Notes under the pieces: model-generated
Databases searched by the model: none
What the model was told of the DNA's origin: nothing
The model's input: only the letters and a program-made list of their open reading frames with translations
Translations under genes and position numbers: made by a program
Shown here: positions 8,601-59,999 of the stretch, in pieces
Position numbering within the stretch: position 1 is the first letter of the stretch
How the letters are laid out: the number at the start of each line of letters is the position of its first letter
Source of the DNA: an uncultured Oxalobacteraceae bacterium
GTDB taxonomy: Bacteria; Pseudomonadota; Gammaproteobacteria; Burkholderiales; Burkholderiaceae
Assembly: GCA_946480015.1 (NCBI GenBank)
Contig: CAMLIL010000012.1
Location: forward strand, 16,050-80,049
Length of the DNA: 64,000 nucleotides
Direction of reading: 5' to 3'

Positions 8601-8874
8601 AGGAGTCGCCGAAGAACGAATAGCCGCGCACCGTCTTCGCCCCCGGCACCGACAGCATCGTGGTGGTCAGGGGATAGGTGACCTGGTTCTCGACGATCTG
8701 CGGTGCCTGGCCCGGATAGCTGGTGCGGACGATGACCTGCACGTCGGACAGGTCGGGGATCGCGTCGAGCGGTGTTTTCGAAAGGGCCCAGGTGCCCCAG
8801 ACGATGATGATGGCGGTCGCCAGCAGGACCAGGAAGCGGTTGGCGATCGACCAGCGGATCAGTCTGGCGATCAT
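5683..8874 (-). CDS. cusA: CusA-type copper/silver RND efflux pump
   Basis: Inner-membrane HME-RND transporter of 1063 residues that takes Cu(I)/Ag(I) from the periplasm or cytosol to the outer-membrane channel, driven by protons. The N-terminus ([20 protein letters not shown]) and the two sets of membrane helices flanking large periplasmic loops are typical. The three Met positions that line the metal pathway of E. coli CusA appear conserved in their contexts: [18 protein letters not shown] and NRIDMLATG. This marks it as the monovalent Cu/Ag type rather than the divalent CzcA type. The start at 8874 overlaps the cusB stop (ATGA). The short C-terminal tail after LLMRRRRL is basic and Asp-rich. 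Confidence 0.94.
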
Positions 8875-10394
8875 TTGCCCGCTCCCGCCGTTGTTGCCGG
8901 CAGTGGCGCCCCTGCAGCCGGTGAAATGGAGGCGATCTCGAATTTGCCGTCCGCCCCCGCGCGGAACTCGAACACGACGGTGGCGCCGGCCCCGACATCG
9001 GGAGGCAGTCCGCCCGGCGGCGGCTTGAATTGCATCGTCATGGGCCCCCATTGCAGCGACGCGATCGGGCCATGGGAGATCGTGACTTCATCCTTGCCGA
9101 TATTCTCGACCTTGCCGGTGCCCCGGTGAATGGGCGCGGCCGTTTGCCCGCCTTCGACGGCGCGCATGCGGCTCGCGGTGCCCCGCAGGCTCGCATCCGA
9201 GTCGATCAAAAACTGGCCGGAGACGACCACTTTCTGGCCGGCCGCGAGGCCCGTGCGGATTTCGGTCTGGCCGTCCGCTTCGATGCCGGTACCAACGTCG
9301 ACGGGCAGGAACGTGCCGTCGCGCTCGACGACCATCACGACGCTGCGCGTACCGGTGCGGATCAGCGCCTCGGCCGGCACCAGCAGCACCTCCTTGCGCG
9401 CCGCCGCTGCGAAGCTGACTGTGGCGAACATGCCGGGCACCAGCTGGCCGGACGGATTGGCCAGCTCGATGCGTGCCTGGCGCGTGCGGGTGGCGGGATT
9501 GACCTCGGGCAGGATGGCGCCGACCTTGCCATTGAAAACTGTGCCGGGCAAGGCTGGCGTACGCGCCGCAACAGCGATGCCCGGATGCACCTGGGCTGCG
9601 AGGTTTTCCGGAATCTCGGCGTTGATCCACACGGTGCCCGTCCCGTTGATGCGAAACAGCGGCGCCCCGGATGTCACCGTCATGCCCTCGCGCGCGGCCA
9701 GGTCGGCAACGACGCCGCCGATCGGCGCCACGACGGTCATGCGCGGCTGCGCCTTGCCGCTCGCCTCCACATGCCGGATCTGGTCATCCGTCATGCCGGC
9801 CAGGCGCATGCGCTGGCGCGCGGCATCGGCCAATCCTTCCGTGGCCGGGGCGATGCCCATCCGCCTGACCGCCAGATACTCCTCCTGCGCGGCGACCCAG
9901 TCGGGCACATACAGCTCAAGCAGCGGCTGGCCCTTCCTGACCGCTGCGAGCGGTGCCCGCACGTGGAGCCGCTCCACATAGCCGTTGCCCCTGGCCTGTA
10001 CCAGCGCGACGTCGCGCTCGTTGTAAGCGACGTTGCCCACCGCCACCACCGCCGGCGCCAGCGCGCCTTTGACGACGTTGGCCGTTCGAATGCCGAGGTT
10101 CTGCTGGACGCGGGGGCTGATGCCGACCCCGCCCTCGTCGCCGGCATCGCCCGCGTACACGGGCACCAGCTGCATGTCCATGAAGGGCGACTTGCCCGGT
10201 TTGTCAAATCGCTGGCCGGGGACCATCGGGTCGTGCCAGTACAGTACTTTTTTATCCGGACTGCGGGCCGCAGTTGCGGGCGCAGCGGGCGCCATGGCCA
10301 TGCCGCGCTGAAGGCCCGTGTAATACAGCCCGTAACCGGCGGCGCCGAGGATGCCTGCCGCGGCAAGGGCGAGCAAGGTGAATGGCGGTTTCAT
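8871..10394 (-). CDS. cusB: CusB-type periplasmic adaptor with fused CusF-like domain
   Basis: Membrane fusion protein that links CusA to the outer-membrane channel and handles metal. From the N-terminus it shows a membrane anchor or signal segment, a heavy-metal-binding domain ([20 protein letters not shown]), barrel-sandwich and beta-barrel adaptor domains, and at the C-terminus a CusF-like domain (about residues 430-490). That tail keeps the ligand pattern of free CusF: His in SHGPIASL, then QWGPMTMQF with the Trp and two Met ligands. Fusion of the metallochaperone explains why no separate cusF gene is present. The start at 10394 has GGAG upstream and overlaps the stop of the channel gene. 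Confidence 0.93.
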
Positions 10395-12171: not shown

Positions 12172-12479
12172 GGTTTTCCAATTGTACGCCATGGATGGCG
12201 GCCCTGGCATGCGGACTACGAGAGTGGCGCTGGTCGAGGCCAGGCTGGGATGGTGAGCTTGCCCCAGTCGGCGACCGGGAGTGGCATCGACGGTAACTTG
12301 CAGCACGGAAAACAGGGGCCGCAATGTGGCGCACTGCACAGACACAACCGCAATTCTGCGATGTAGAATCCGGACGCGGACGTGCTCAACCTGCTCAAGC
12401 GGCCGCCCTGTTTAACTGGCCGGAAAGGCGCGGTTCTTTTCTAACTTTTGGCGGTCCGCCGCCGACATCAGAGGCAGCC

Positions 12480-12959
12480 ATGGCAAGTAAATCTGTGGCA
12501 GGTACGTGTCCTGTCGATACTGAGCTGCCGGCAACGCGGCCGGTGGCAGCCACCGGCAATCCGGCGTCGCAGCGGCTCTATCATGGAACACGGGCCGACC
12601 TGAAGCCCGGCGACCTCATCGAACCCGGCTATAGCTCCAACTACGGCAAGGGGAAGAAGGCGAACTGGGTCTACCTGTCAGCCACACTGGAGGCGGCGAC
12701 CTGGGGGGCGGAACTGGCACAGGGCGACGCGCCGGGCAGGATTTACATCGTGGAACCGACCGGCCCAATCATGGATGACCCCAATCTGACGGACAAAAAA
12801 TTCCCCGGCAACCCGACCAAGTCATACCGCTCGCGCGAACCACTGCGCGTCGTCGGGGAGGTCATGGAGTGGCAGGGGCATTCGCCCGAAACGCTCCAGG
12901 CGATGAAGGACCACGTCGAGCGCCTGAGGCAACTAGGCGTTGAGGCAGATGACGACTGA
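12480..12959 (+). CDS. arr: NAD(+)-rifampin ADP-ribosyltransferase
   Basis: Transfers ADP-ribose from NAD+ to rifamycins, inactivating them in the cytoplasm. The core from LYHGTRADLKPGDLIEPG through NYGKGKKANWVYLSATLEAA, RIYIVEPTGPIMDDPNLTDKKFPGNPTKSYRSREPLRVVGEV is the classical Arr fold sequence with the His and Tyr residues that hold NAD. At 159 residues it is slightly longer than typical Arr proteins (about 140-150) because of a Pro/Thr-rich N-terminal lead. The start at 12480 has GAGG five bases upstream and fits the family length better than the open frame back to 12324. It is a single gene between the divergent copper operon and the riboswitch locus, with no integron cassette or IS around it, so it looks like an intrinsic chromosomal copy. 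Confidence 0.93.
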   Translation: MASKSVAGTCPVDTELPATRPVAATGNPASQRLYHGTRADLKPGDLIEPGYSSNYGKGKKANWVYLSATLEAATWGAELAQGDAPGRIYIVEPTGPIMDDPNLTDKKFPGNPTKSYRSREPLRVVGEVMEWQGHSPETLQAMKDHVERLRQLGVEADDD

Positions 12960-13079
12960 TTGCGTGGCAGGACGCCCGGGGGCTTGGCCAAATCAAATCA
13001 TCAGCGCTATGCCTTGTCTGCCCGGCGCTATTAGGGTGGCAACGATGCCGCGTTCACTGTAAAATGCGCGGATTATGTG

Positions 13080-13265
13080 AATGGTGTCCTCCTGCTGGCC
13101 AGCGGGAGGGTGAAACGGGAAGCCGGTGATGCGCGAGATTTCATCTTGCGCCAGTCCGGCGCAGCCCCCGCTGCTGTAAGCCTGACGACCTTGATCGAAC
13201 GCCACTGTGCCGCGCACGGGAAGGCAGGATCAGGGAAGGATGAAGGCAAGCCAGAAGACCGGCCA
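13080..13265 (+). promoter_or_regulatory. cobalamin (AdoCbl) riboswitch
   Basis: The region carries the ordered landmarks of the cobalamin riboswitch: a G-rich start leading into GGTGAAACGGGAAGCCGGTG (13109-13128), the core GCGCAGCCCCCGCTGCTGTA (13158-13177), GCCACTG near 13200, GGGAAGGC near 13218, and the closing GCAAGCCAGAAGACC near 13248. Their spacing fits the usual length of about 190 bases. It is oriented toward the CobN-like gene that begins about 220 bases downstream, so that operon is expected to be repressed when B12 is abundant. Exact ends are approximate. Confidence 0.93.
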
Positions 13266-13280
13266 TTCATGCTTGATTGC

Positions 13281-13304
13281 GCAAAACCCGGGGTGTGGTT
13301 TTGC
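13281..13304 (+). promoter_or_regulatory. hairpin after the riboswitch, possible expression platform
   Basis: A perfect 8-bp inverted repeat, GCAAAACC and GGTTTTGC, around an 8-base loop, followed by a T-rich run (TGTTCGTTGTTTCTTCC). It sits about 20 bases after the riboswitch core and could be the regulated terminator or anti-terminator stem. The poly-T is interrupted, so the terminator call is tentative. The remaining leader (13305-13485) shows no convincing gene. Confidence 0.4.
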
Positions 13305-13485
13305 CTGTTGGCTGTTCGTTGTTTCTTCCTTCGTTGGTAATGCTGCCGCTCGCTGCGGCCGTGCATTTGTTCGCGCGCGCGGTCACCCGCCGGCTGCCTG
13401 CATGCGCGCTGTGCCCTTCCTGGAAAAAACACGGCTGCCTGGTTTTCATGCGTGCCCGGCGCGCAGTCACAGGTCAAAACATACA

Positions 13486-16400
13486 TTGAGTTCCTTTACA
13501 CTTTTTCGGTTAGTCGTCGCGATGCTGTGCGCCGTCGCCTGCGCACCCGTCCAGGCGGACACCCTGTTCGCCATCGTCACCGAGCGCGCCGCGCCAACGG
13601 CCATCGAAGCGGCCCACCGCCATCTTCTCAAGCATCCACAGGACCGCATTGTGCTGCGCACGCCGGCCCAATGGATGGCCGCGAGCGATCGCCAGGCAGG
13701 TCTCTGGGTAGCACAGGCCGGCAGCGTGCTGGCCGTTTCGCTGTTTGGCGACCCGGCGCGCCGCCTGAAGGAAGTCTTGCCGCGCCATGCAAGGGCGCGC
13801 TCGGCCGTTCTAGCCTTCAACGGCGAAGCCAGCCTCAGCCTGATGAGCCGCGACGCGCGCGGCGGCCTGCTCGACTTCCCGCCCGAGACGCTGCGTGAAC
13901 TGGCGTCGGATGCGCCGCCGGAAGCGGCCCTGAAAACGGCGCAAGCCCATCCCGCCGCCAGCCATTGGCTAGACGCGCGCCGCCTGTGGCAGGGCGGCGG
14001 CACCGACAACACCGCCGCGCTGTTCGCGCATCTGCTCAATCCGGCCGTGGCACTGGCCGCGCCGCTGCCGGAACCGACACTGCGCGTGCGCGTGGGCCAG
14101 CGCGAGCTGACCGGCGCCGCCGCCTGGGGCAACGCGGCGCAACTGGGCCTGAAGGCGCAGAGCGCCGTGGTGATATTGGACCTGGCGAATATGGACAGCG
14201 CCGTTCCGGCCGCCGTCTGCCAGCGCATCGAGCAGCGCGGCCAGCCTTGCGTGCAGGTGCTCACGCGCTGGGGCGGCGCCTCGCGCGAAGCGCTGGAACG
14301 CTTGCCCGAGCTGATCGCGCCGGCACAAGCAGGGGCGCTGATCGTGCTGCAGGATTTCGTGGTGGGCGCCGCCGAAGGCCGCGAAGCCGTCACGGAAGCG
14401 TTCAAGCGGATCAACGTGCCCGTCTTCAAGGCCATCCGCCTGTCCGACCGCACCGCCGTGCAATGGCGCCTGTCGCCGGACGGCTTGCCGCCCGATTCGG
14501 TTCAGTACCGCGTGGCGCTGCCGGAACTGCAAGGCATCGGCCAGCCCATCGTGGTGGCCGCGCTGGGCCAGGCCCAGCTCGACCGCCAAACCGGCATCGA
14601 GAACCGTCCGCCGGTGGTGCTGGCGGCGGAAGCGGACCGGCTGTCCGCGCGCGTGGGCCGCTGGCTGGCGCTGCGCACCAAGGCCAATCGCGACAAGCGG
14701 GTGGCGCTGATCTATTACAACCATCCTCCGGGCCGCCAGAACATCGGCGCCGACAACCTGGACGTGCCGGCCTCGCTGTTCGACATGCTGCACGCGATGA
14801 AAAACGCCGGCTACACCGTCGGCACGCTGCCGGCAACCCCGGAAGCACTGCTGGACATGATCATGGCGCACGGCGTCAACCTGCCGGAAGACCGCGCCGC
14901 GCTGCGTGAGCTGAGCGGTACCGTCAACAGTGTCTCCGCCGCCGACTACGCGCGCTGGTTCGGCACGCTGTCGCCGCGCGTGCAAGGGGAAATGACCAGT
15001 GGCCTGCTGGGCCGGCTGCATGCCGACGTGCTGGAAGCGGAGGCCAGCGGCGAGCGGCTGCTGGGCCGCAAGCAGGGCGCTGTCATCATCAAGGAATTGC
15101 AGCACCTGGCCGAAGGCGCCGACCACCCGCAGCGTGACGCCGCGATCGCTGACCTGGCGGCGCTGGCGCAAGGCTACAATGACTGCCTGGAAGTGCGCGC
15201 CGCGCGCCGCTGCGCCGCGCTGGCTCCGCTCGTCCGGCGCCTGGGCAGTTACGGCATCGAAGGCTTGAAGGGCTGGGGCGCCGCACCCGGCAAGATCATG
15301 GTCGACAGCGGCAAGCTGCTGGTGCCGGGCCTGGTCTTCGGCAATGTGTTCATCGGCCCGCAGCCGCCGCGCGGCTGGGAAGTGGACGAGGAACTGCTGC
15401 ATGCCAACACCAGTATCACGCCACCGCACCAGTACCTGGCCTTCTACCACTGGGTGCGCGACCGCTTCAAGGCCGACGCGCTGGTGCACATCGGACGCCA
15501 CTCCACCTACGAATTCTTGCCGGGCAAAGCCGTCGGCCTGGCTTCGGACGACTACCCCAGCCTGATTGCTGGCGATCTGCCGGGAATCTATCCGTATATC
15601 GTGGACGGCGTCGGCGAAGGCACCCAGGCCAAGCGGCGCGGACTGGCGGTGATTGTCGACCACCTGACGCCACCGTTGGCCACCACCCCGCTGTACGACG
15701 AGCTGCTGGCACTGCGCCAGGTGGTCGAGAGTTTCGAGGCCGCCAACTCGGAGTCGCTCAAGGCACAGGCCGCGCACCTGATGCGCGAACGGGTCAACGC
15801 ACTGAACCTGAAGGCGGAACTGGAAGCCTCGATGGCCGACGTGCTGGCGGTGCGCGGCATCGGCTTCGACGCGGCGGACGACGATTTGCTGGCGCACGAA
15901 GTCGGCCATTATCTGACCAAGCTGCAGGAGAAATTCATGCCCTTCGGCCTGCACATTTTCGGCCGCCCCTGGACGCAGCAATCCATCGCTCTGATGCTCG
16001 ACTCGATGACGAAAGGAGGCATCGACGCACCGGACATTGCCGCCAGGCTGGCCGATTCGCCGCGCCGCGAGATGCTGGCCCTGCTGGCCGGCCTGGATGG
16101 CCAGTACATTGAACCGGGCAAGGGTAACGACCCGCTGCGCTCGCCCGAAGCGCTGCCCACCGGACGCAACTTCCACGCCGTCGACGGCGACATCTTGCCG
16201 ACCCGCCTGGGCTACCAGCTGGGTGCGCGCATGGCCGCCAAAGCCGGCGCGCGCGACACTGTGCTCAAGGGCAGCGAAGGCATCATCCTGTGGGCGTCCG
16301 ATGCGGTCCGCGATGAAGGCGTGATGGTGGCGTTCGCGCTGGCCATGATGGGGGCCGAGCCGGTGTGGAATGCGCGCGGTATCGTCACCGATGTGCGGCT

Positions 16401-17844
16401 CAAGCCCGGCGCCATACGGCGCGACGCCCTGGTGACAACCTCGGGCCTGTTCCGCGACCTGTATCCCAACCTGATCCGCCTGATCGACCGCGCCGGCCGC
16501 CTGGCGCTGGCCGCATCTGCCACCGCCCTGGCCGAGCGGGATCCGGCGCTGAAGGAAGCCTTGCAGGCGGCGCTCGCGCCGGTGCCCGGCGCGGCCTGGG
16601 GCAGCGAAGACCTGGCGCGCAACCGCGTGGCGGCCGAATGGCTGGTGCGCCAGCGCACCCTGGCCAGCTCCGGCATGCCCGCCAGCGAGGCGGGCCGCGC
16701 CGCCGCGCAGCGCGTGTTCGGCGATGCGCCTGGCGCCTACGGCACCGGCGTCAACCGCCTGACCGAGCGCTCAGGCGCATGGCGCGAGCGCGACGAGATC
16801 GGTCGCGCTTACCGCAACCGCATGGGCCACGCCTACGGACTGGACGCCAGCGGCGAGGCCAGCCACGGCGCATTCGACGCGGCGCTGGATGGCATCGAAC
16901 GCACCTACCACGGCCGCGCCAGCAATTTATACGGCCTGCTCGACAACAACGACGCCTTTGATTACCTGGGCGGCCTGTCGCTGGCCATCGAGGGGCGCAC
17001 CGGACGGGTGCCGGAGGCCTTCATCCTGCAGCATGCGCAGCCAGGCCGCGCCGACGTCGAACCGCTGGCCGCCGCCCTGCTGGGCGAACTGCGCGGGCGT
17101 TTCCTCAATCCGGCCTGGCTCAAGCCGCTGATGGGACATGGCTACGCCGGCGCGCGCACCATGGGCCAGGAATTCGTGGAAAATCTGTGGGGCTGGCAAG
17201 TGACGCGGCCCGACCTGGTAAAGAGCTGGGCGTGGGACGAGGTGAAATCGGTGTACGTCGACGATGCGCACAAACTGGGCCTGCCGCAATTTCTCGGCCA
17301 AGGCCACAACGCGCACGTCAAGGCGCACATGCTGGCCATCTTCATGGTCGCCGCCGAGAAGGGATTCTGGAAGACCGACCCGGCCACCATCAGGAAAATG
17401 GGCGGCGAGCTGGCGCGGCTGGTGGCCAGCAACGGCTTGCCGGGCAGCGGCCATGCCGCGCCCAATCACCCGATGTGGGACTGGCTGGCGCCGCAGCTGG
17501 ACGGCGCCGATGCGCAAGCGCTCGGCGTGGCGCTGGCCAAGGCGCGCGGCGAAATGCTGCCCGCCGCCGCCCAGTCCGAGGCCAGGCAATCCGGCCAGCG
17601 GCGCCATGCGCAAGCGGCCAATGCGGCCAATGCGGCCAATGGGGCCGAAGCGGCCAAGCCCGCCGCGCAGCCCGCCACTGCGCCCCCCCGCATGTATGAA
17701 TTGCACCAGAAGTCCGCTCCGCCGGCGGCCGCGGCCGTGCGCGTGGCCAAGCTGCTCGGCGCGCTGGCCGCCGGCCTCGCCCTGTTCGCACTCGGCCTGT
17801 GGCGCGGCCGTCACGTATCTCAACCTGTAAGGAGTTCCACATGA
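13486..17844 (+). CDS. CobN-like chelatase, predicted exported and membrane-anchored
   Basis: A member of the CobN/BchH/ChlH large chelatase subunit family, about 1450 residues. Classical CobN is a cytoplasmic cobalt chelatase of B12 synthesis, but this one begins with a signal peptide (SSFTLFRLVVAMLCAVACAP, cleavage near VQA-DT) and ends with a hydrophobic anchor (LLGALAAGLALFALGLW) preceded by an Ala/Asn/Pro linker, so the body should lie in the periplasm. The CobN body is clear: HQYLAFYHWVRDRFKADALVHIG, GDLPGIYPYIVDGVGEGTQ, DHLTPPLATTPLYDELLALR. The usual HGxLEWLPGK motif reads HSTYEFLPGK. Start: TTG at 13486 gives the signal peptide; the next ATG (13522) cuts into it. It is riboswitch-controlled and coupled to ExbB-like and DUF2149 genes. 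Bacteroides HmuS, a related protein with the same partners, is reported to act on haem. Confidence 0.85.
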   Translation: MSSFTLFRLVVAMLCAVACAPVQADTLFAIVTERAAPTAIEAAHRHLLKHPQDRIVLRTPAQWMAASDRQAGLWVAQAGSVLAVSLFGDPARRLKEVLPRHARARSAVLAFNGEASLSLMSRDARGGLLDFPPETLRELASDAPPEAALKTAQAHPAASHWLDARRLWQGGGTDNTAALFAHLLNPAVALAAPLPEPTLRVRVGQRELTGAAAWGNAAQLGLKAQSAVVILDLANMDSAVPAAVCQRIEQRGQPCVQVLTRWGGASREALERLPELIAPAQAGALIVLQDFVVGAAEGREAVTEAFKRINVPVFKAIRLSDRTAVQWRLSPDGLPPDSVQYRVALPELQGIGQPIVVAALGQAQLDRQTGIENRPPVVLAAEADRLSARVGRWLALRTKANRDKRVALIYYNHPPGRQNIGADNLDVPASLFDMLHAMKNAGYTVGTLPATPEALLDMIMAHGVNLPEDRAALRELSGTVNSVSAADYARWFGTLSPRVQGEMTSGLLGRLHADVLEAEASGERLLGRKQGAVIIKELQHLAEGADHPQRDAAIADLAALAQGYNDCLEVRAARRCAALAPLVRRLGSYGIEGLKGWGAAPGKIMVDSGKLLVPGLVFGNVFIGPQPPRGWEVDEELLHANTSITPPHQYLAFYHWVRDRFKADALVHIGRHSTYEFLPGKAVGLASDDYPSLIAGDLPGIYPYIVDGVGEGTQAKRRGLAVIVDHLTPPLATTPLYDELLALRQVVESFEAANSESLKAQAAHLMRERVNALNLKAELEASMADVLAVRGIGFDAADDDLLAHEVGHYLTKLQEKFMPFGLHIFGRPWTQQSIALMLDSMTKGGIDAPDIAARLADSPRREMLALLAGLDGQYIEPGKGNDPLRSPEALPTGRNFHAVDGDILPTRLGYQLGARMAAKAGARDTVLKGSEGIILWASDAVRDEGVMVAFALAMMGAEPVWNARGIVTDVRLKPGAIRRDALVTTSGLFRDLYPNLIRLIDRAGRLALAASATALAERDPALKEALQAALAPVPGAAWGSEDLARNRVAAEWLVRQRTLASSGMPASEAGRAAAQRVFGDAPGAYGTGVNRLTERSGAWRERDEIGRAYRNRMGHAYGLDASGEASHGAFDAALDGIERTYHGRASNLYGLLDNNDAFDYLGGLSLAIEGRTGRVPEAFILQHAQPGRADVEPLAAALLGELRGRFLNPAWLKPLMGHGYAGARTMGQEFVENLWGWQVTRPDLVKSWAWDEVKSVYVDDAHKLGLPQFLGQGHNAHVKAHMLAIFMVAAEKGFWKTDPATIRKMGGELARLVASNGLPGSGHAAPNHPMWDWLAPQLDGADAQALGVALAKARGEMLPAAAQSEARQSGQRRHAQAANAANAANGAEAAKPAAQPATAPPRMYELHQKSAPPAAAAVRVAKLLGALAAGLALFALGLWRGRHVSQPVRSST
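17614..17658 (+). repeat. 9-bp tandem repeat in the linker of the CobN-like gene
   Basis: Five consecutive 9-base units, three of them exact copies of GCGGCCAAT and two variants, encode an Ala-Ala-Asn type stretch just before the C-terminal membrane anchor. It lies in the flexible linker, where unit number could change without harming the fold. Confidence 0.7.
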
Positions 17845-18284
17845 TCGAAACCTTGTCCTATGCCTGGCTGCACGACGCGGTCCGCTGGCTGCTCGCGCCG
17901 GCCTTGGCCGCTCTGCTGATCGGCTGTGCGATCGCGCTGGTTGAAGCCGGCATCGCCGTGGGCGAGCGCTTCCACGGCCTGGCCAAACTGGGGGCGGGCG
18001 GAAACCTGGCGCAAGTGCAAGCCATCGCCCGCCATCGCCTGGAGCGCGCCGACCTGCTGGCGCGGATACCGCCGATGCTGGGCCTGATGGCCACGATCAT
18101 TCCACTCGGGCCCGGACTGGCCGCGCTGGGGCAGGGCGATCCCGCCCAGCTTGCAAGCGCCGTGACGGTCGCGTTCGATGCGACCGTGCTGGGCCTGGTG
18201 GCCGGCATCGCCGGCCTGGTGATCGGCAAGCTGCGCCGCCGCTGGTACGAAGAAACGCTGGAAGCCATGGAGCAGGCAGCATGA
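17841..18284 (+). CDS. MotA/TolQ/ExbB-type proton channel protein
   Basis: A short (147-residue) ExbB/TolQ/MotA-family membrane protein. It has an N-terminal membrane helix (WLLAPALAALLIGCAIALVEAGIA), a short cytoplasmic stretch with RHRLERADLLARIPPMLGLMATIIPLGPGLAALGQGD, matching the TolQ/ExbB signature, and two closely spaced C-terminal helices (AVTVAFDATVLGLVAGIAGLVIG). The start ATG overlaps the stop of the CobN-like gene (ATGA), with AAGGAG upstream. In the family, these proteins pair with an ExbD/TolR-like partner to turn proton flow into mechanical work on envelope proteins; the DUF2149 product next door fits the partner role. The likely client is the CobN-like chelatase, an inference from gene coupling. 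Confidence 0.85.
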   Translation: MIETLSYAWLHDAVRWLLAPALAALLIGCAIALVEAGIAVGERFHGLAKLGAGGNLAQVQAIARHRLERADLLARIPPMLGLMATIIPLGPGLAALGQGDPAQLASAVTVAFDATVLGLVAGIAGLVIGKLRRRWYEETLEAMEQAA

Positions 18285-18625
18285 GCGGCGGCCAGCCCGC
18301 GCGCCGGCGCATGCGCCTGTACTCCCGCCTCGACGCCCGCTTCGACGACGGCGACGAAGATCCGCGCGCCAGCCTGGTCAACCTGGTCGACGTGATGCTG
18401 GTGTTCGCCTGCGGCTTGATCGCAGCCATCGCCGGCGCGCAGGGCGCGCTGAAGGCGCCGAAACCGGTGGAGAAGGGGCGCCAGATTGAACGCCCCGTGT
18501 CGGGCGTGACACAGGACGGTAGCGGCTACGACCGGGTCGGCGAAGTCTTTCGCGACCCGAACACGGGCCAGCTCATGCTCATTGAGCCAGCCAGGAAGAA
18601 CCCCGCCGCCAAAACGGCGCCATAA
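18281..18625 (+). CDS. DUF2149 protein, possible ExbD-like partner
   Basis: A 114-residue DUF2149 protein. After a basic, charged N-terminus (RRRMRLYSRLDARFDDGDEDPRASLVNLVDVMLVFACGLIAAIAG) comes one membrane helix, then a periplasmic tail with PVSGVTQDGSGYDRVGEVFRDPNTGQLMLIEP. The ASLVNLVDVMLVF segment resembles the plug/TM Asp motif of ExbD/TolR, where an Asp in the helix takes part in proton flow. Its ATG overlaps the ExbB-like stop, so all three genes of this locus are translationally chained. The same trio of CobN-like, ExbB/MotA-like and DUF2149 genes recurs in other bacteria and archaea, which supports a working complex. The biochemical role of DUF2149 is not established. Confidence 0.85.
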   Translation: MSGGQPARRRMRLYSRLDARFDDGDEDPRASLVNLVDVMLVFACGLIAAIAGAQGALKAPKPVEKGRQIERPVSGVTQDGSGYDRVGEVFRDPNTGQLMLIEPARKNPAAKTAP

Positions 18626-18721
18626 CGAGCGCAACAAACAGAAAAAACCCTGGTACGGCTATAAGCGCGACAGTGTCGACATCGTCGATGCGGTCGCGGT
18701 GGAACGCGAGCGGGCGGGACA

Positions 18722-59853: not shown

Positions 59854-59999
59854 CCATGCGTTAGAACGGGTAAGCGCCACTGTTGCGCAGGGCTGCTATA
59901 CTCTTGCCGGGGTGCGAACATCAAATTGCAGGTGTCGCAGGTTTTGCGTCAGGTCGGGCCGCCGCGCTGACCGTGCTCGACCAACGAAAGACCGCGCCC

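Follow-up and report, generated by a model that had tools for sequence, protein, structure and literature searches.

The DNA analysed here is a stretch of 64,000 nucleotides from an uncultured soil bacterium of the Oxalobacteraceae (forward strand of contig CAMLIL010000012.1; hereafter the window). It carries a cobalamin riboswitch followed by three overlapping genes, which encode a CobN-like protein predicted to be exported and two small partners resembling the ion-motor proteins ExbB and ExbD. The context of the trio looks like that of corrinoid acquisition or salvage, not of B12 synthesis, and the three proteins probably help the bacterium to capture or finish B12-type molecules. The module spans positions 13065-18625 of the window, and its features, together with a candidate promoter, are as follows.

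13036..13065, + strand: sigma-70-like promoter candidate directly 5' of the riboswitch; weak, with 9/12 consensus matches
13065..13281, + strand: cobalamin riboswitch aptamer; RF00174, 118.6 bits against a gathering score of 31.5, E 4e-29, full-length model
13281..13304, + strand: stem-loop 3' of the aptamer; stem pairing in relatives, loop complementary to CCCCCG of the aptamer
13486..17844, + strand: protein of the CobN/ChlH/HmuS family (BtuS-type), 1452 amino acids; likely TTG start, export predicted
13486..13557, + strand: predicted signal peptide, residues 1-24, MSSFTLFRLVVAMLCAVACAPVQA, read from the TTG start at 13486; hydropathy only
15487..15501, + strand: HxGxH motif, H668-H672; H672 corresponds to HmuS His538
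15895..15909, + strand: HExGH motif, residues 804-808; candidate clade-specific metal site
16951..16953, + strand: D1156, aligned with HmuS His1209
17752..17802, + strand: predicted C-terminal transmembrane anchor, residues ~1423-1439; hydropathy
17841..18284, + strand: ExbB/TolQ/MotA-like channel protein, 147 amino acids; MotA/ExbB PF01618, 35.6 bits, above cut-off
18281..18625, + strand: DUF2149 protein, ExbD-like, one transmembrane helix; PF09919, 31.0 bits, above cut-off

The best named match is Pseudoduganella namucuonensis, at 88% identity. DNA similarity to the 24-kb locus of this nearest relative is confined to 13058-13323 and 13428-18628, that is, to the riboswitch and the three genes, which therefore behave as one unit. 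An earlier, sequence-only reading had described an operon headed by a B12 riboswitch, in which a CobN-like gene is chained by ATGA overlaps to an ExbB/MotA-like and a DUF2149 gene. The Rfam and Pfam matches above and the two overlaps (17841-17844 and 18281-18284) bear out this arrangement.

The cobalamin riboswitch

Related loci (n = 80) were picked by likeness to the CobN-like protein of the window, and counts out of 81 include the window itself. A same-strand RF00174 match above the gathering score lies within ~6.1 kb upstream in 75/81 loci, and a motif scan places the riboswitch within 350 nucleotides of the trio in 37. For the tally, Rfam coordinates were matched to loci by hand, alongside the motif scan. 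A regular expression for the riboswitch was rejected as a counter, because it yielded false positives (in L120, not confirmed by Rfam; in L041, as a nearer match), and the count is based on Rfam coordinates for that reason. Among the other six loci, L050 and L054 have weak matches only (29.8 and 25.1 bits), L071 and L080 have less than 1.4 kb of upstream sequence at contig edges and no riboswitch over the threshold, and the Rfam search finds none on the trio strand in L056 and L062. In L061, two cobalamin riboswitches stand back to back on opposite strands (9261-9815), the plus-strand copy heading the trio.

The stem-loop that follows the aptamer is probably the P13/L13 kissing-loop hairpin, which we take to be the partner in the L5-L13 contact of adenosylcobalamin (AdoCbl) riboswitches. 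Its stem is paired at 256 of 288 positions across the 36 loci with a CGGGGTG-loop pattern near the aptamer, and most positions vary among several pair types; L078 (3/8 stem positions) and L038 (4/8) fit poorly. Riboswitches of this class usually repress in response to AdoCbl, and by analogy the one in the window is expected to repress the trio at plentiful B12. Sigma-70-like sites at the level of the promoter candidate number 2 in 6.2 kb vs 0.6 in shuffles. The folding energy of the leader is uninformative (z -0.96).

The CobN-like protein and its two partners

The open reading frame of the CobN-like protein runs from 13207 to 17844, and the TTG at 13486 is kept as a start in five of eight aligned close relatives, the window included. 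The protein matches the Pfam model CobN-Mg_chel (PF02514) with 805.7 bits. In the tree, the 24 rows of its clade form one branch with support 100, apart from CobN (6 rows), BchH, and a second exported type. HmuS also falls outside the clade, although its row is partial, its end branch is 3.05 long, and its placement is unsure. The NCBIfam CobN equivalog models agree with the tree: the window protein scores at best 589 vs a cut-off of 1619, and 502 vs 822 for TIGR02257, whereas a true CobN used as control (L084) scores 1568. The protein is thus separated from CobN by tree and by curated cut-offs alike, in line with the sequence-only reading. It fits the account of BtuS, a third CobN-related type that is exported and membrane-anchored (available text of PMC6460266).

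The second exported type is labelled PA1923-type on the basis of DUF2149 neighbours (17/24 loci), the NF004644 model (two proteins above its cut-off), and weak Zur-like boxes, for which up to 4 mismatches were allowed; PA1923 itself was not compared. For this type 25 loci were fetched, and the chelatase is present in 24, none being seen in L122. None of the 25 has a B12 riboswitch within an upstream cover of ~2-9 kb, which is shorter than that of the clade.

The CobN-like protein is predicted to be located in the cell envelope. By hydropathy, not SignalP, a signal-like N-terminus is found in 79/81 clade proteins, with cleavage-like residues before the mature start in 66/81, and a C-terminal transmembrane segment in 72/81; the threshold for the latter is not fully specific, since some inner stretch passes it in 27/81. 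The C-terminal segment nevertheless divides the groups (clade 22/24, other exported type 22/24, CobN 0/6, BchH 0/5), as does a simple N-terminal measure (18/24, 17/24, 1/6, and 0/5, respectively). Cysteines average 5.4 and 3.6 per protein in the two exported groups vs 9.0 and 12.4 in CobN and BchH. C245 and C255 are invariant (81/81), as expected of a periplasmic disulphide. The hydropathy measures uphold the signal peptide, C-terminal anchor, and envelope location that had been proposed from the sequence.

A functional landmark is HmuS of Bacteroides thetaiotaomicron (PDB 9d26), the characterised exported relative, which is described as an experimentally shown haem dechelatase (available text of PMC12583661). 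The catalytic His538 of HmuS (HFG(T/A)HG) is kept as H672 in the window protein, where the motif reads HIGRHS. H668 and H672 are invariant in the clade (81/81) and throughout the joint alignment (60 rows), and His672, Glu711, Arg717, and Arg718 are kept in the clade. At the second metal-site position the two proteins differ. His1209 and Glu1212 of HmuS (LSLDHxxEFMGG) become Asp1156 and Asp1159 in 24/24 clade rows, and the haem ligand His254 aligns with Glu297; a second alignment differs in this stretch but again places no histidine there. Met79, the other haem ligand, falls beyond the stretches that align. Asp is found at 1156 in 24/24 clade, 6/6 CobN, and 18/24 other exported proteins. The HExGH motif is present in 81/81 clade proteins and in 0/35 at the aligned place among CobN, BchH, and other exported proteins, HmuS not being covered there. 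Many proteins of the other exported type have different histidines at this place, HExxH occurs elsewhere in 4 of the 35, and 11/81 clade members have more than one copy.

The channel protein is modelled (predicted local distance difference test score, pLDDT, 90.6) as three long helices. The closest PDB folds of the model are ExbB/TolQ, no single E-value being better than 0.016, and the sole PDB match of the protein by profile is a MotA (E 0.0022). T85 and T115, which presumably correspond to T148 and T181 of ExbB, are kept in 79/80 rows. In the DUF2149 protein, D37 lies inside the hydrophobic stretch and is invariant (79/79); we take it to be the counterpart of ExbD D25. A profile search finds no PDB relative of DUF2149. 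The ExbB-like gene is present in 79/80 loci and DUF2149 in 78/80, and the trio is whole in 78/80; the two incomplete loci, L038 and L040, are both at contig ends. DUF2149 matches are stronger in the other exported type (~76-107 bits, one partial at 64) than in the clade (~24-48 bits). Because the Pfam model overlooks the trio of genome G001, it is used only to part the strong from the weak kind.

Similar trios are on record, as the sequence-only reading had stated. HmuS, like the window protein, has a class-I chelatase fold on the periplasmic side, and its operon adds the ExbB-like and DUF2149/ExbD-like proteins HmuU and HmuV; it differs in its iron control, where the window trio is under a B12 riboswitch, and in a predicted N-terminal anchor, where the window protein is anchored C-terminally (available text of PMC12583661). 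In Pseudomonas aeruginosa, PA1922-PA1925 likewise place ExbD/channel and DUF2149 partners beside a CobN-like protein (PMC9431628, in its available part). This operon is Zur-regulated and its role is presented as unsettled in the accessible text of PMC4542158, PMC8456098, PMC11761036, PMC8531726, PMC9431628, and PMC13083405. Proteins labelled PA1923-type share the C-terminal transmembrane segment of the clade and differ in having no B12 riboswitch at the 25 loci (control in P. aeruginosa being by Zur), in their stronger DUF2149 scores, and in lacking HExGH at that place. Exported CobN-like BtuS proteins were reported by Rocha in 2018, who cites Rodionov 2003 for the family and for naming BtuS the third CobN-related type (as told in PMC6460266). 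In Bacteroidetes, Mesle in 2023 noted hmu-like operons behind cobalamin riboswitches and suggested a cobalamin role (PMC10100974, available text). By description, the members of these families resemble the window protein in being CobN-related, exported, and membrane-anchored, and some of those in Bacteroidetes follow a cobalamin riboswitch.

With such precedents (HmuS, BtuS, and the riboswitch-led hmu-like operons), the idea of an exported CobN-like protein in a B12 context is not new in general. For the clade in proteobacteria, with its motifs and its setting among salvage genes, no earlier account was found in the literature searched, which left out most subscription papers. In the same literature, part of it available only in excerpt, no member of these CobN-like families is found to have been tested for a B12 role.

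Neighbours, hosts and the role of the trio

Genes up to 10 kb from the trio were surveyed in both directions and on both strands. The counts are lower bounds, since gene calling still overlooks genes (for example the CobN-like gene of L001), and the name of each neighbour cluster comes from a single representative; those of the BtuB-, BtuC-, and BtuF-like clusters score under the NCBIfam cut-offs. B12 uptake or salvage clusters are found in 36/80 loci. BtuB-like genes are the most frequent (29/80), followed by CobA (22), CobB (19), BtuF-like (15), BluB (15), the CobD decarboxylase (12), CobU (12), BtuC-like (12), CbiB (11), CobT/DBI_PRT (7), and a CobQ-type amidotransferase (7). At least one of three TonB-receptor clusters is present in 45/80.

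The hosts mostly seem, from their gene content, unable to make the corrin ring. Among 28 genomes of relatives, whose assemblies are possibly incomplete, the corrin-ring marker CbiC was not found in 24. CobT is present in 4/28 and CbiC in 4/28, with no genome in both lists, but the Azotobacter genome G021 has a CobN-clade protein and CbiC without a CobT match. CobB exceeds its cut-off in 25/28 hosts vs 62/200 genomes in the order of G001, where CbiC is present in 13/200. The match pattern of the clade occurs in 4/200 of these genomes, G001 included, with CbiC in 0/4 and CobB in 4/4. The idea that CobB signals an unusual route of early salvage was rejected, as 62/200 genomes of the order carry it. 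It marks late-pathway salvage generally, and its tie to the trio is only suggestive, relatedness being uncorrected.

We give an even chance to the reading that the trio is a B12-controlled corrinoid-acquisition module, in which a chelatase-fold protein of BtuS type is driven by its own ion motor. An exported, C-terminally anchored class-I chelatase-fold protein would handle incoming corrinoids in the periplasm, and an ExbB/ExbD-like ion motor would drive it, replacing the cytoplasmic AAA+ motors (CobST, ChlID) of CobN and ChlH. Any metal chemistry would make or complete a usable cobalt-corrin rather than strip it. On the sequence side, this reading draws on the riboswitch, the export and anchor signals seen in hydropathy, the fixed trio, the motor-type residues, the separate clade, and the salvage neighbours. 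From these we infer that the ligand is a corrinoid, that chemistry would occur at the metal site, and that the work of the motor goes into the chelatase and not into an outer-membrane receptor. The tie between chelatase and motor is near-constant (79/80 and 78/80), whereas ties to receptors are looser (BtuB-like 29/80, TonB 45/80), a pattern that points to a motor working for the chelatase, like the AAA+ motors of the CobN and ChlH systems.

Several observations weigh against the acquisition module. The 80 loci are not independent, having been selected for resemblance to the window protein, so the counts describe its clade. No B12 gene cluster is seen by gene calls within 10 kb in 44/80 loci, the window being of this kind, six of 81 loci are without a same-strand riboswitch over threshold, and TonB receptors lie near as many as 45/80 trios. 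CbiC is present in 4/28 hosts. Three of the 28 have no CobB over the cut-off, and the route therefore cannot always pass via cobyrinic or hydrogenobyrinic acid. Asp1156, tried as a mark of CobN and this clade, was rejected with 18/24 of the other exported type having it. HmuS itself removes metal. Lastly, BtuS1 of B. fragilis, which may be a riboswitch-led member, was examined jointly with BtuS2 for the use of haem iron, on which the double mutant grew poorly (PMC6460266, in its available part).

Of the alternatives, the best placed, though unlikely, is a transport machine without metal chemistry, in which corrinoid uptake draws its energy from the ExbB-like and DUF2149 proteins, with the CobN-like protein as a periplasmic corrinoid receptor or TonB-like transducer. 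The ExbB/TolQ-like fold and the ExbD-like Asp would suit such a machine, as would the BtuB-, BtuC-, and BtuF-like neighbours (29, 12, and 15 of 80 loci) and the TonB receptors (45/80), and HmuU/HmuV have been assigned in print to powering the receptor HmuR (PMC12583661, PMC10100974, available text). However, all 81 proteins keep the chelatase active-site residues unchanged, receptor genes vary between loci whereas the trio is hardly ever incomplete, and Pfam finds no TonB domain in the trio proteins of the window.

Quite unlikely is a periplasmic HmuS-like dechelatase that would remove cobalt from corrinoids or break down those that cannot be used. HmuS offers the model, but its His1209 and His254 are not kept and its Glu1212 is Asp. 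The trio is expected to be repressed at plentiful B12, and cobalt or a bare corrin would be of little use to the hosts. Freed cobalt would have no evident use, because CbiC was not found in 24/28 of them. The de-metallation of corrinoids put forward in the sequence-only reading is weakened on the same two grounds, the expected repression and the rarity of CbiC.

If metal chemistry occurs, we infer that insertion or completion is favoured over removal, because stripping B12 under B12 control brings ring-less hosts no clear gain. A specific form of the acquisition module follows this line and is distinctly unlikely as stated: a periplasmic relative of cobaltochelatase, powered by a proton-driven ExbBD-like motor instead of AAA+, would let ring-less bacteria put cobalt into the cobalt-free or incomplete corrins of their neighbours, with HExGH holding or delivering the cobalt.

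Action on another tetrapyrrole or metal chelate, such as haem or a zinc chelate, with only indirect B12 control, is very improbable. Relatives do serve haem iron (HmuS) or respond to zinc starvation (PA1922-PA1925; PMC4542158 and PMC9431628, in their available parts), but the B12 riboswitch is found at 75/81 loci of the clade and at 0/25 of the other exported type.

CobN works with CobST in the cytoplasm, on an AAA+ motor, in de novo B12 synthesis. A CobN of this kind is close to refuted for the window protein: it shares the fold, the HxGxH motif, the PF02514 match, and an Asp at the second metal-site position, but it scores far under the NCBIfam cut-offs, lies in a separate clade, and has export signals, while CbiC is in just 4/28 hosts and an Azotobacter (genome G021, locus L116) carries a clade protein as well as a CobN-clade protein.

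The established picture of CobN and ChlH is of chelatases that work in the cytoplasm and are driven by ATP. Beyond haem iron (HmuS) and the zinc response (PA1923), an exported, motor-tied, B12-controlled clade in proteobacteria would give the fold yet another use, and it points to a step of corrinoid salvage that is absent from pathway maps. The trio is also a compact system for asking whether ion motors can drive tetrapyrrole chelatases.

Names of the relatives and surroundings of the locus

In public records many clade proteins go under the name cobaltochelatase CobN, and B12 auxotrophs could thereby look like producers. Clade members P0006, P0010, and P0049 are instead labelled 'hydrogenase expression protein HypE', likely a naming error. 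A protein of the other exported type (L099, 2161-6645) passes the NCBIfam CobN equivalog NF004644 (1510 vs 1248), and proteins of this type may receive the name cobaltochelatase CobN from pipelines.

The sequence-only reading had noted no btuB, cobS, or cobT nearby. For btuB this stands: nine B12 uptake and salvage proteins of relatives (BtuB-, BtuC-, and BtuF-like, CobA, CobB, CobU, CbiB, CobD, and BluB) give no tblastn match in the 64-kb window at E 1e-3; CobS, CobT, and CobQ were not searched there.

Upstream of the module lie genes for a CusB-like protein, an outer-membrane efflux protein, and a rifampin ADP-ribosyltransferase-like protein, and downstream are members of the Na+/H+ exchanger and GCS2 families. 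The rifampin ADP-ribosyltransferase-like gene (12324-12959, +; PF12120 Arr-ms, 165 bits) is immediately 5' of the riboswitch and outside the stretch similar to the nearest relative. The CusB-like membrane-fusion protein (8874-10370, -) has a fused C-terminal CusF domain. An nhaA-I RNA motif lies at 59910-59966 (+), with 39.3 bits, barely over its gathering score of 37.

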